Shown here piece after piece: positions 3,969-64,000 of a DNA stretch of 64,000 bases. The position numbers and the translations under genes were made by a program. This DNA is from Azospirillum sp. TSH100. GTDB lineage: Bacteria; Pseudomonadota; Alphaproteobacteria; Azospirillales; Azospirillaceae. The notes under the pieces were generated by a model. The model worked only from the letters and a program-made list of their open reading frames with translations, searched no databases and was not told where the DNA came from. The stretch is from the NCBI RefSeq assembly GCF_004923295.1, contig NZ_CP039636.1:284001-348000 (forward strand), read 5' to 3'. Within the stretch, counting starts at the first letter, position 1; every line of letters starts with the position of its first letter.

Positions 3969-4151
3969 CGGCCGGGCAGAGGGCGACCAGAACAGGTGGG
4001 GCCGCGATACGGGGAGCGGAATAGTCCCCGGCTCGCGAAGCATGCATCGCTGCGGACCATTTTTGCCGCAGGACCGTCCGGTCCGCGGTCTTGCTCCCGC
4101 CACAGTGCGGCGATACCGTGCAGCCCACGCCGCAGCCGTCCCCGTGGAAAC

Positions 4152-60549: not shown

Positions 60550-61119
60550 TCAGTCCCGGCCGTCCAGCGTCGCCAGTTCGGTCTCGATCACCGACAGCCG
60601 CTCGCGCAGCCGATCACGTTCCGCCTCCAGCGCCTCGCGGCGGCTGACATGGTCGATGGCGCGGTTGCGCAGGTCGCGCTTGAAGCGGACGATCTCCGGC
60701 CGGGTGACGTCGGGCCGGATCAGGTTGCGCTGGTCGGCCAACCGCAGCTGTTCGCTGTTGAGCGTGGCCAGCTGGTAGACGGTGGCATAGCTCGGCGGCA
60801 GTTTCGCCCCTGGCAGGCGGCCGCTGTCCACCGCCTCCGCCACCATGCGCAGCTGGTAGGCGACCTGATAGCCGAACGGCAGTTCATTCTCGACCATCGC
60901 CTGGAACTCGCCATGCGGCAGGCGCGCCCGCGCCTGGACCAGATAGCGGCCGATCAGCAGGAACTTCTCCTGCGCGCTGCGCCAGAGGGTCGAGATTTCC
61001 TGGACGAACTCCTCGCGCCGGACGAGGTCGACCGTCGCTTCCGACATGCGCTCGATCCGCTCGTCCACCGCGATGTGGCGGCGGGCCTGGGCCTTGGAAA
61101 CCTGTTTGAACCCGCTCAT
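60550..61119 (-). CDS. DUF3102-like partner protein downstream of ParA
   Basis: Protein of 189 residues, not a recognised ParB. Residues 40-100 (SAQEKFLLIGRYLVQARARLPHGEFQAMVE, split in two) resemble DUF3102, a plasmid- and phage-associated domain. The C-terminal third (150-189) is a charged coiled coil. The start overlaps the parA stop as ATGA, so it is probably the DNA-binding or adaptor partner of ParA in plasmid partition, taking ParB's place. This role is inferred from position. Confidence 0.68.
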   Translation of the reverse strand: MSGFKQVSKAQARRHIAVDERIERMSEATVDLVRREEFVQEISTLWRSAQEKFLLIGRYLVQARARLPHGEFQAMVENELPFGYQVAYQLRMVAEAVDSGRLPGAKLPPSYATVYQLATLNSEQLRLADQRNLIRPDVTRPEIVRFKRDLRNRAIDHVSRREALEAERDRLRERLSVIETELATLDGRD

Positions 61120-61778
61120 TGCGCCAGCTCCAGTTCATGGCGGACGAAGGCCCAGACGCCGGCGACATGCTCCGCGCCCTTGCCGCCTTTCAGCTCCAGC
61201 AGGCCGAGACCACGGCCGGCGGTGAACTGGATGTCCTCGTAATCCGGCACCTCGACCGGGCAGATCCGGCCGTCGCCCAGCAGCTTGCGTTGCGCCTCGG
61301 TGAAGCCGCGGGTGCGCGGCTTGACGCGGTTCATCACGAAAGCGGCATTCTTGCCATAGCGGCGGACGAAGCGCATCCAGGGCCGGACGGAATCGAGGTC
61401 GTCGTCGCTCTGCCCGGTCGGCACCACGATCAGGTCGGACGACAGCGCCAGCAGCTTGAATTCCTCCGGATGGTCCTCGATCGACGGCGGCGTGTCGATC
61501 ACCAGCAGGTCGAAGCCCGCGATGCCGTCCAGGGCAGCGCGGATGTCGACCGGCGTCATGCCGGCCTCGAAATGGGTGATGGTGGCCATGCCGTCCGGCC
61601 GCTTGGCGAACCATTTGGTCAGGCTGCGCTGCGGATCGAGGTCCAGCGTCGCCACCGTGCAGCCGTCCAGCGCAGCCGCCACCGCGATGTTGCGGCTGAG
61701 GGTCGTCTTGCCGATCCCGCCCTTCGGGCCATTGACCAGCAAGCGCTTCACCGGCCCGTGTCCCGTGTCGTTGCCCAT
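61116..61778 (-). CDS. parA: ParA-family partition ATPase
   Basis: Small ParA/Soj-type ATPase, 220 residues, without an N-terminal HTH. The deviant Walker A KGGIGKTT is at 19-26, DLDPQRSLTKW follows, and FDLLVIDTPPSIEDHPE carries Walker A'/B. It partitions the replicon by nucleoid-bound gradients. The ATG at 61778 has AAGGGG 8 bases upstream; an in-frame ATG at 61799 is less likely. A perfect 16-bp palindrome about 65-80 bp upstream may be its operator. It is in the rep-hyp-parA-DUF3102 gene row. Confidence 0.93.
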   Translation of the reverse strand: MGNDTGHGPVKRLLVNGPKGGIGKTTLSRNIAVAAALDGCTVATLDLDPQRSLTKWFAKRPDGMATITHFEAGMTPVDIRAALDGIAGFDLLVIDTPPSIEDHPEEFKLLALSSDLIVVPTGQSDDDLDSVRPWMRFVRRYGKNAAFVMNRVKPRTRGFTEAQRKLLGDGRICPVEVPDYEDIQFTAGRGLGLLELKGGKGAEHVAGVWAFVRHELELAQ

Positions 61779-61926: not shown

Positions 61927-62568
61927 TCATCGCATACGGCGCATCGCCGACGCCAGCATCGGCCGCACAGCACCGGCTCCACCGCCAGTTTCCCCAACCC
62001 GCTCACCGGCCATCGCGATCGCGCGCAACTGGTCGGCGAGTGCGCGTTCGACGGCGCAGGCCTCTTCGCACAGGCTGCGGATCTCGGCGATGCTCGGCCG
62101 CCATTTGCGGGTGCGGCGCCAGCGCCGCGCCGCCTGATCGATGGCCCAGGCCGGAAACTCTCCCAGATCGTCGGCCCAGTCCATCGCGAGCAATTGCTCC
62201 ACCTCCGGCGTCGTTGCCTTCGCCGGGAAATGGCTGAGCAGAGCCAGCACCCGACCGAGCAGATGGTTTGCCGGTGCCGGCGCCAGGATACTGTCGTCGA
62301 TTTCCGCGAGAGCCTTCCTGGCCAATGCGGCATGGCGCGGCGTCACGCCGTCCGGCGGCGTCCAGTCCTCCACCACGTCGGCGAAGCCATCTTCGGTGAA
62401 CCGGCTGTGACGGCCCACATGCCCACGGTCGAGCAGACATCGCAACGGCTCCGGCAACGCCTCGCGCAGCATCCGGCTGCGCAAGGCCGGCGTCATTGCC
62501 GGATCGAAGGGCAGCGGCAGGCTGGGCGGCGCAGCCGGCGATGCGGGAAACGGATGGAGATTGCTCAT
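61927..62568 (-). CDS. Hypothetical protein between rep and parA
   Basis: Protein of 213 residues with no family recognised with confidence. The middle (about 95-185; LSHFPAKATTPEVEQLLAMDW, then EFPAWAIDQAARRWRRTRKWRPSIAEIRSLC) resembles small phage and plasmid proteins near replication genes, some described as helicase-loader-like. The N-terminal 25 residues are Pro-rich. The start overlaps the rep stop as ATGA, so it is coupled to rep and likely helps replication or its control. Confidence 0.6.
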   Translation of the reverse strand: MSNLHPFPASPAAPPSLPLPFDPAMTPALRSRMLREALPEPLRCLLDRGHVGRHSRFTEDGFADVVEDWTPPDGVTPRHAALARKALAEIDDSILAPAPANHLLGRVLALLSHFPAKATTPEVEQLLAMDWADDLGEFPAWAIDQAARRWRRTRKWRPSIAEIRSLCEEACAVERALADQLRAIAMAGERVGETGGGAGAVRPMLASAMRRMR

Positions 62569-63446
62569 GCGACTCCCCAGGGATTGGCGGATGCGTTGGA
62601 GGGCGTGCCGTTCAGGCGCGCGGCGACGCTGGCCCAGGCCGAGAGGCGTTGTTCGGCAGCCATCGTCGCCTCGGACGATGTTGAACGGCGCCCTGCCCGG
62701 CTCTTCGCTTCACGGACTGCTGCCGCGGGCTGTGGCGCCATACGCCCGGCGTCCTGCAACAGCCAGGATCGCCATGCGGCAGCCGGATCGCGATACCGAT
62801 AGCCATGGGCGCGGCATTGCTGGACGAAGCGTTCAGCATGGGCATCGACATCGACGGCCGGGAAGCGCCCGGCCGCCCAGTGCCGGTCGGCCGGGGCCGG
62901 CAACCAGTCCTGCGGAACCTGTTCAGCGGCACCGACAATCTTCCGGTTGGCACTTCCTTGATCAGCGATCCCGTCATGTGCGCGTCGGTGGAGCGTGTCA
63001 GGAATCTGTTCTGATTCAGGCTGTTCGTGACTCGCTGCTGAACAGGGGGAGTCCATTGCTGAATCAGCGGGGTTGTCCATCCCCGCACCCTCGCCGGCCC
63101 GGTCGGCCACCCTGTCGTCGGCCAGCAGAACCAGCCGGTACCGGCAGCTCAGACGTCCGCCATTGGCCGAGCGGCGGTGTTCGATGCCAACCAGTCCAAG
63201 CGCTTCCAGCCTGCCGAGGATCCGGTTGACGGTCGGCCGGCTGCGCTTCAGCTTTTCCGCCAGTGTCGCCTGCGACGGCCAGCACACCCCCGCCTCGTCG
63301 GCGTAGGTGCTGAGCGCCGCCAGCACGGCAAGGCCGTCGGCGTCGAGGTCGGGATGGTCGAGCCACCAGGCCGGGATCCGGCCCCAGCGGTTCTGTCCGG
63401 TGCGGCTTTGGCCGGTGCGGTTGGGGTTCGTGCTGTTCTCAATCAT
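62565..63446 (-). CDS. Probable replication initiator (Rep) with winged helix
   Basis: Protein of 293 residues with an N-terminal HTH_36-type winged helix (about 38-108; CWPSQATLAEKLKRSRPTVNRILGRL split at 55-80). A variable linker (115-190) and a C-terminal domain (about 200-293) follow. It lies directly beside the iteron array and upstream of parA, so it is the best candidate initiator, though it is not a RepC, RepA_N or Rep_3 protein I can name. The ATG at 63446 has GGAGGAG 11 bases upstream. That ribosome site lies inside a 10-codon frame (63439-63471) that overlaps the start and might regulate it. Confidence 0.7.
   Translation of the reverse strand: MIENSTNPNRTGQSRTGQNRWGRIPAWWLDHPDLDADGLAVLAALSTYADEAGVCWPSQATLAEKLKRSRPTVNRILGRLEALGLVGIEHRRSANGGRLSCRYRLVLLADDRVADRAGEGAGMDNPADSAMDSPCSAASHEQPESEQIPDTLHRRAHDGIADQGSANRKIVGAAEQVPQDWLPAPADRHWAAGRFPAVDVDAHAERFVQQCRAHGYRYRDPAAAWRSWLLQDAGRMAPQPAAAVREAKSRAGRRSTSSEATMAAEQRLSAWASVAARLNGTPSNASANPWGVA
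63011..63067. repeat. Nested inverted repeats inside rep
   Basis: CTGATTCAG (63011-63019) pairs with CTGAATCAG (63059-63067), and inside them CTGTTC (63021-63026) pairs with GAACAG (63040-63045). They fall in the part of rep encoding the variable linker. The arrangement could form a cruciform or RNA stem; it may also be chance in a low-constraint region. Confidence 0.45.
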
Positions 63447-63545
63447 CTGTGGCGATACTCCTCCGCGCCATGAGCGCAAGATTGGCCGCATGGCTGGCCG
63501 TCTCTATTGGCTGGGAGGATTCGGAGCGGTGGGCGGCAGAGTCGA

Positions 63546-64000
63546 ATCGCGGGCAGCAACTCCATGGCCGACCCATGGAGCAGAAACCCGCGTATGGTCA
63601 GCGACAGCCCGCGACCGTAAAGCCCCTGCCCGCGACCATGGAGCATTAGCCCGCGATGTCCGGCCGAATCGGAATCCTGGTGCCTTTGATCGCGGATATG
63701 GAGCTTTTGCCCGCGATTGGCCTGCCGTTGCTCGCCGCGATCCTGGAGCAACAGCCCGCGATTGTCCGCTGACAGCGGCGGTCGCGAGCAATCCGGCCAT
63801 TCATCCATCCGCTCCCGACGGCCATGGAGCCGCAGCCCGCGGTTCGGCTTCTGATGCCGGATGGCTGGCTGCGGCCGATTCTCCCCGATTCTTCAAGGAG
63901 TCGCGGCTGCGGGCCCTGTCAGACGAGGCTCGATGCGCCAATCGCGGGCTATCGCTCCATGATCGCGGGCCGTTGCTCCATCATCGCGGGGCGGAGCGCC
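63546..64000. repeat. Iteron array: replication origin
   Basis: About a dozen copies of a 20-bp repeat, consensus ATGGAGCNNNNGCCCGCGAT. Plus orientation: 63575-63594, 63596-63615, 63617-63636 and 63638-63657 (exact 21-bp period; the middle two are degenerate in the first half), then 63698-63717, 63722-63741 (degenerate), 63743-63762 and 63824-63843. Minus orientation: 63546-63565, 63941-63960, 63962-63981 and a copy from 63983 cut by the window edge. The conserved core is GCCCGCGA. The array lies 100 bp upstream of rep and should be its binding site. No DnaA box was identified. The array continues beyond the window. Confidence 0.85.

Follow-up and report, generated by a model that had tools for sequence, protein, structure and literature searches.

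The DNA analysed here, called the window below, is a stretch of 64,000 nucleotides from Azospirillum sp. TSH100 that corresponds to C3:284001-348000, within the 917,252-bp contig C3 of a genome of 7.17 Mb in 8 contigs. An iteron array lies at its right edge, between a divergent gene set with partition genes and a Rep gene that starts just past the window, and the window numbering is continued beyond 64000. The features are as follows.

60550..61119, minus strand: small protein beside ParA; weak DUF3102 match, 4.6e-4, below cut-off
61116..61778, minus strand: ParA-family partition ATPase; PHROG ParA-like 9.4e-30, Pfam CbiA 1.8e-12
61927..62568, minus strand: partner of the HTH protein, 213 aa, matching no named family
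62565..63491, minus strand: HTH_36 protein of 308 aa, phage O/DnaD-like, divergent from Rep
63547..63565, minus strand: lone outward iteron copy, 1 mismatch
63575..63842, plus strand: plus block of eight copies, the first four in exact 21-bp steps; starts (mismatches) 63575 (1), 63596 (4), 63617 (3), 63638 (0), 63677 (5), 63698 (0), 63743 (1) and 63824-63842 (1), with those at 63596, 63617 and 63677 degenerate
63843..63941, no strand: inter-block gap of 99 bp, not AT-rich
63877..63902, no strand: three GANTC (CcrM) sites, GATTC at 63877, GATTC at 63887 and GAGTC at 63898
63942..64023 (in the window to 64000), minus strand: proximal minus block of four copies (mismatches), 63942 (0), 63963 (0), 63984-64002 (1) and 64005-64023 (2)
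64106..65338 (C3:348106-349338; L005:4606-5838), plus strand: Rep, 410 aa, just past the window

A scan with the pattern ATGGAGCNNNNNCCCGCGA, that is ATGGAGC-N5-CCCGCGA, placed the array at 63547-64023, past the window end, with 10 copies at no more than two mismatches and 3 degenerate copies, the latter counted solely because they stand in the 21-bp register. Matches with 4-5 mismatches at 63722, 63782, 63901 and 63923 were left uncounted, and such matches are common throughout the 15 kb. The steps are exactly 21 bp in two runs of four copies (63575/63596/63617/63638 and 63942/63963/63984/64005). An earlier sequence-only reading of this DNA had proposed about twelve repeats, several spaced by 21 bp, in two blocks facing each other across about 100 bp, and all three proposals agreed with our scan; extension past 64000, which it had suggested, showed that the minus block continues and that its last copy ends at 64023. 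The lone minus copy ahead of the plus block was absent from that reading. Its placement of the genes has to be corrected: it had put the plus block next to rep, where the neighbour is the O/DnaD-like HTH gene at 62565-63491, and the Rep-like initiator was found beyond the minus block, at 64106.

The array was far denser than chance would give. The form TGGAGC-N4-GCCCGCG, at up to two mismatches, matched 17 times in 15 kb, with 11 of the matches inside the array; 200 dinucleotide shuffles averaged 3.75 matches (sd 1.96) and never exceeded 8. The de novo motif score at the array locus was 68, compared with 19-24 in 8 simple shuffles. Genome-wide, the exact core form occurred 6 times, all at C3:347639-347980 and thus within the array, while matches with up to two mismatches showed no excess (909, against 1039 for the reversed control). 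A second scan pattern, GCTCCAT-N2-TCGCGGGC, which spans two adjoining copies, gave 68 whole-genome matches at up to two mismatches, of which 4 lie in the array, whereas its reversed control gave 28; the excess consists of weak single matches, scattered and mostly beyond the array. Among the matches listed genome-wide for either pattern there was no second cluster of copies, apart from a periodic run on C7 (C7:269124-271843), where one strand carries loose iteron-pattern matches at intervals of about 300 bp. That run probably belongs to a long gene of repetitive sequence that has nothing to do with the origin.

The 410-aa Rep, whose start lies 83 bp from the last minus-block copy, had no Pfam or NCBIfam match above cut-off and no match in a PDB profile search. 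With tblastn it matched 1274 plasmid records, and the 60 listed included an IncC plasmid at 26%; aligned with IncC RepA, it showed 26.3% identity over 86% (E about 1e-24). Its plasmid-borne relatives carry annotations such as "plasmid replication protein" and "hypothetical protein". When 39 aligned Rep relatives were searched at E no greater than 0.01, PF10134 (RPA) was found in 4 and PF01051 (Rep_3) in 2, the best Rep_3 value being 2.5e-5, and the focal protein had neither. The hhalign comparison with F RepE was weak (E 0.0015, probability 16.7%), although the match was colinear over 157 columns, with Rep residues 164-338 aligned to RepE 80-242, so membership of Rep_3 is only weakly indicated. 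Rep is the best initiator candidate at the locus and a distant relative of IncC RepA; phased direct repeats would then lie beside the initiator gene, as expected of an iteron origin. In a search of the genus, 43 of the 45 genomes had a member of the family. In one genome, two partial Rep matches (G010:C3:515922-530134) were seen besides the fuller one at 496692, and these are possible decayed duplicates.

On the other side of the array, the HTH protein matched Pfam HTH_36 at 1.4e-10 and, among PHROG families, replication initiation (1.3e-16), O-like (8.9e-13) and DnaD-like loader (6.7e-7) proteins, which makes it a candidate helicase-recruitment factor. The 213-aa protein encoded next to it had 211 relatives, and those with a name among the 120 listed were hypothetical proteins, nearly all from Azospirillum. 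The small protein next to ParA is, by its position, a candidate for the partner in the ParB role.

We then compared loci. At 27 loci found by Rep sequence, ten of which, all in Azospirillum, carry a Rep 94-98% identical to the focal one, the focal-consensus test found focal iterons at 25; L041 and L044 had none of that sequence. For a wider comparison, 108 loci were reduced to 80 distinct upstream sequences by dropping 28 duplicates, and were oriented by hand with the distal block as plus. An array was called where the de novo motif score reached 1.5 times or more that of the highest-scoring of five simple shuffles. This was so at 79 of the 80 loci, the exception being IncC (L052, 20 against 19). 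Proximal minus copies in steps of 20-22 or 41-44 bp were found at 78 of these 79 loci, a plus run of at least three copies in 20-22 bp steps at 65, and a lone minus copy 10-45 bp ahead of the plus run at 69; since the loci are related, these counts are not independent and describe a pattern, not a significance level. Irregular loci were L053 (Skermanella), L095, L099 and L113. The paralogue locus L017 scored 33 against 25-32, without an array, presumably because its orientation was not matched to the Rep strand; the more complete locus L054, which was oriented by Rep, does show an array.

The iteron sequences themselves differed. Average linkage gave 10 clusters among 67 loci, the one that joins L095 with L111 being doubtful; single linkage was dropped, as marginal links merged visibly different classes. 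Examples of classes are ATGGAGC..GCCCGCG, TGTCCC.TTTGCCCGCG, TGTCG.AAAACTCGCG, TAGGTGACAGGCGCG and AGGTTTGCGGTGCAG. The layout is thus largely kept where the iteron sequence is not. The neighbouring genes are also of the same kinds whatever the iteron class: an HTH homologue stood upstream of Rep at 79 of 80 loci, IncC again being the exception, and the 213-aa protein was found at 68 of 80, missing from IncC, L053 and ten more (L113 and nine short loci), where the gene is probably just out of reach. At L113 some 2.3 kb separate the HTH match from Rep, compared with about 0.8 kb at other loci, as if there had been an insertion between the HTH gene and Rep.

Which protein goes with the iterons was analysed in the 67 loci with both HTH and 213-aa matches (L051, L052, L053 and L113 were left out by hand, and at other loci the genes were out of reach). 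Iteron similarity followed Rep identity closely (Spearman 0.895; 0.893 given HTH), HTH identity weakly (0.233; 0.182 given Rep) and 213-aa protein identity at 0.412. As predictors of shared iterons, the AUC was 0.992 for Rep, 0.802 for the 213-aa protein and 0.646 for HTH. Phage lambda O is an iteron-binding initiator, and the HTH_36 protein at 62565-63491 might play that part here with Rep as an accessory; it has the PHROG matches to replication-initiation and O-like families, its gene adjoins the plus block, and a homologue sits beside the origin at nearly every locus. We regard this as improbable, however, because HTH divergence barely tracks the iteron class, with pairs of different iterons at up to 86.6% HTH identity and pairs of common iterons at as little as 44.8%, and because the IncC relative has iterons and Rep, yet no upstream HTH match. 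The HTH protein was accordingly set aside as the iteron binder, given its weak co-variation with the iterons, and Rep was retained.

Between genomes, iterons were shared by 79% of 169 pairs at 62-68% Rep identity, by 4 of 5 pairs at 68-80% and by all 276 pairs above 80%, and almost never below 58% (fraction 0.00). Within the 25 genomes that have two or three Reps, none of the 37 Rep pairs had iterons in common, a count that adds little beyond Rep identity since 34 of the 37 pairs lie below 58%, with one alone at 62-68%; the largest relative iteron score within a genome was 0.43, on a scale where 0 is shuffled and 1 is the locus's own. The within-genome count means that, as judged from their sequences, co-resident Reps are of different classes, and nothing further. 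Taken with the co-variation, it suggests that each iteron sequence pairs with its own Rep and that co-resident replicons differ, as in an iteron origin. Since co-resident replicons keep the layout and have their own Rep and iterons, several can coexist.

The gap between the blocks had been suggested as the unwinding site, an idea that our results did not support. Over 76 loci the mean AT content was 0.307 in gaps and 0.327 in arrays, no AT-rich unwinding region was found in either, and DnaA boxes, taken as TTATCCACA with up to one mismatch, numbered 2 where 3.0 were expected. The gaps were rich instead in GANTC. In the C3 stretches searched (799 kb, the overlap of the window with L005 counted twice), three GANTC within 30 bp occurred at two places, one of them the focal gap. 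At least one GANTC was present in 71 of 78 gaps, the 7 gaps without it being partly a matter of how the gap was cut, and the total was 145 in 6705 bp, compared with 18.0 expected from shuffles. Over the 76 loci, density was 22.1/kb in the 110 bp that precede the minus block and 8.6/kb elsewhere in the origin, GANTC being raised in other parts of the array too; in two 50-kb samples from replicons of A. lipoferum 4B, the background was 2.88/kb in 41 ordinary intergenic stretches, one of which holds 4 GANTC within 95 bp, and 1.35/kb in genes. Among 13 representatives hand-picked to span the iteron types, two of them from the focal class, 12 gaps contained GANTC (1000 shuffles averaged 2.86, with a maximum of 8 of 13), and the top 7-mer was CGATTCG, in 9 of 13 (largest 5 in 200 shuffles). 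The GANTC/CGATTCG element of the gap is, on these comparisons, conserved independently of iteron class. A pattern match to a GANTC pair at C1:2496288-2496316 was dropped for want of a surrounding GANTC cluster.

A predicted CcrM-like methylase is encoded in the genome: a 473-aa frame that, like CcrM, combines an N6_N4_Mtase domain (4.1e-66) with a RAMA domain (3.1e-14); in the control for the RAMA search, Caulobacter alone matched among 14 control genomes. There is a sizeable chance, if a minority one, that GANTC/CGATTCG is instead a site for the HTH protein or another shared factor and that its overlap with the CcrM motif is incidental. The commonest flanked form in gaps, C-GATTC-G (45), is longer than GANTC, and both the element and the HTH protein are largely independent of iteron class. 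GANTC lacking one or both of these flanks is also frequent, though (C-GATTC-T 32, G-GAGTC-G 23), and the arrays of C2 and C6, with other Rep types, are likewise GANTC-dense.

Other replicons of the same genome were analysed as well. C4 carries a second copy of the Rep/iteron system, with TGTCCC-type iterons. The Rep of C2 (1.16 Mb) is of the RPA type (PF10134, 5.4e-48), and the focal Rep profile showed no significant match to it (probability 1.2%, E 0.046); the iterons of C2, CGAACGTCGTCGTTCTGCC, stand in two opposed sets with an HTH homologue adjacent (36%), and in this region (L166 3669-4200, about 637669-638200) three GATTC follow in exact 11-bp steps at 4009/4020/4031, among the HTH-side iteron copies and not between the opposed sets. 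C6 (0.50 Mb) has a Rep-like ORF (L171 3101-4123) with an RPA match below cut-off, iterons TTGAACTTTGGTGACGC interspersed in both orientations (L171 2387-3099, about 134387-135099), and 13 GANTC in 901 bp beside the ORF. Within stretch bounds that we set ourselves, GANTC counts around the arrays, observed (expected), were 12 (3.8) on C2, 8 (1.9) on C3, 8 (2.4) on C4 and 13 (3.4) on C6. On C8 (54 kb, RPA) the two flanks of Rep gave 2 (3.1) and 0 (3.1); the C8 repeats, TGCGGGTGATCCGCCGA (L172), contain GATC and show no GANTC enrichment. RepC (PF03428) of repABC had 0 matches in the genome, in a profile search run without a repABC-bearing positive control.

The cumulative GC skew of C3 has its minimum near 494 kb, about 146 kb away from the array and within a broad trough of 240-510 kb, and the array locus lies roughly opposite a late maximum near 770 kb. 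The distance to the minimum, together with the lack of an AT-rich unwinding element or DnaA box, would fit a regulatory or incompatibility/copy-control locus with the true origin elsewhere on C3. This seems unlikely to us, because the array keeps the company of Rep and the HTH gene on many replicons, whereas the partition genes do not stay with them, and because the trough is broad and the locus faces the maximum. Still far less probable is a parS-like partition centromere for the adjacent ParA and its partner. ParA is indeed only about 1.8 kb away, but AZO_p2 and A. argentinense p2 have no par genes listed within 7 kb on either side (the PLSDB gene table is incomplete), Sp7 p3 has ParA across Rep, on the opposite side, and the iterons track Rep.

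Most probably, the repeats mark the site where replication of a large second replicon starts, and it is quite probable that the segment is the origin of the 917-kb C3, of the Rep/iteron kind, with Rep-bound blocks, helicase recruitment through the HTH protein and, less surely, gating by CcrM. What stands of the sequence-only reading is the phased iterons, the opposed blocks and a replication locus of a large secondary replicon; adjacency to rep and the unwinding segment do not. From the strong co-variation, we infer that Rep binds the 21-bp-phased iterons of both blocks on one face of the DNA, and the distal plus block, the lone inverted copy and the proximal minus block would form one initiation complex that spans the gap. 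Lying 83 bp ahead of the rep start, the proximal block may additionally repress rep. Family resemblance and synteny suggest that the O/DnaD-like HTH protein and the 213-aa partner recruit the replicative helicase. The gap GANTC/CGATTCG sites may also be methylated by CcrM, in which case firing would follow methylation state and be tied to the cell cycle; this step is weaker than the others, and the origin is only possibly gated in this way.

More tentatively, and as less likely than not, we propose that a shared design of two layers runs several large Azospirillum replicons. In this proposal the specific layer, Rep and its iterons, would be free to diverge and so keep the replicons compatible, and the shared layer, CGANTCG in or near the gap with the HTH protein and its partner, would provide a tie to the cell cycle via CcrM. 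The shared design goes with two Rep types or more, that of C3 and C4 and the RPA type of C2, and a GANTC-dense iteron array was found on C6 too, though not on C8. The GANTC sites and common layout may help to explain how many replicons are copied side by side. If our reading of the locus is right, it points to the probable origins of many such replicons, allows Reps to be paired with their iterons by sequence, and makes it possible to test directly for a methylation clock on replicons other than repABC ones.

According to the parts consulted of a 2026 survey, 59.4% of Azospirillum DNA lies on extrachromosomal replicons, and such genomes motivate work on replication coordination (PMC13342612). 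The secondary replicons of four strains were described, in the portion available to us, as having repABC/parAB-type systems (PMC3899980). The Rep/iteron system was found here on AZO_p3 and AZO_p2 of A. lipoferum 4B, one of those four strains, and the same portion of that paper, which is loosely worded, does not name it (PMC3899980). The main text of PMC3245306 contained none of five replication terms, the consulted parts of PMC12456017 do not treat the focal origin, and the titles and abstract openings listed in our survey of open-access papers gave no description of it.

Among the closest known systems is the IncA/IncC (A/C) RepA replicon, with a homologous Rep (26%, about 1e-24) and iterons of about 19 bp with two conserved halves, for which the consulted text gives the consensus yaTRTGGGNNcgcTGCACG (PMC7433901). 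The L111 iteron (GTGGGAACGGCTCGCG) has TGGGAACG in common with IncC iteron copies. However, the IncC iterons lie downstream of repA, whereas the focal array lies upstream of Rep and has another sequence; a DnaA box is reported there, in the text consulted (PMC7433901), and shows no excess at the 76 loci compared here; no HTH or 213-aa match was found upstream of the IncC Rep; and no opposed blocks were seen among the IncC repeats listed. Rep_3 iteron plasmids such as F (RepE) resemble the focal system in the colinear Rep alignment and in phased iterons near rep, but the match is weak (16.7%), and the focal origin has opposed blocks and a lone copy and no AT-rich element.

The repABC chromids, such as that with ori2 of A. 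tumefaciens, are likewise alphaproteobacterial secondary replicons with a GANTC-rich origin. As far as the consulted sections go, the CcrM level alters ori2 firing in A. tumefaciens, where three GANTC overlap the putative ori2 (PMC11514494), and repABC origins are GANTC-rich, with RepC binding in vitro independent of methylation (PMC6090056). Unlike these, the focal genome has no RepC match and has an iteron array and a different Rep instead.

Phage lambda O/P-type origins use the O protein plus P, and an O-like HTH protein with an adjacent small protein is present here too, but the focal iterons lie outside the HTH gene and track Rep rather than HTH. Vibrio chromosome II, whose RctB works with iterons, is alike in its working: a secondary chromosome has an iteron origin linked to methylation, by Dam in Vibrio and, as proposed here, by CcrM. 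The link of its replication to Dam methylation is described in the parts consulted of PMC2865523. At origins of the focal kind, unlike Vibrio, the methylation motif is densest between the two blocks.
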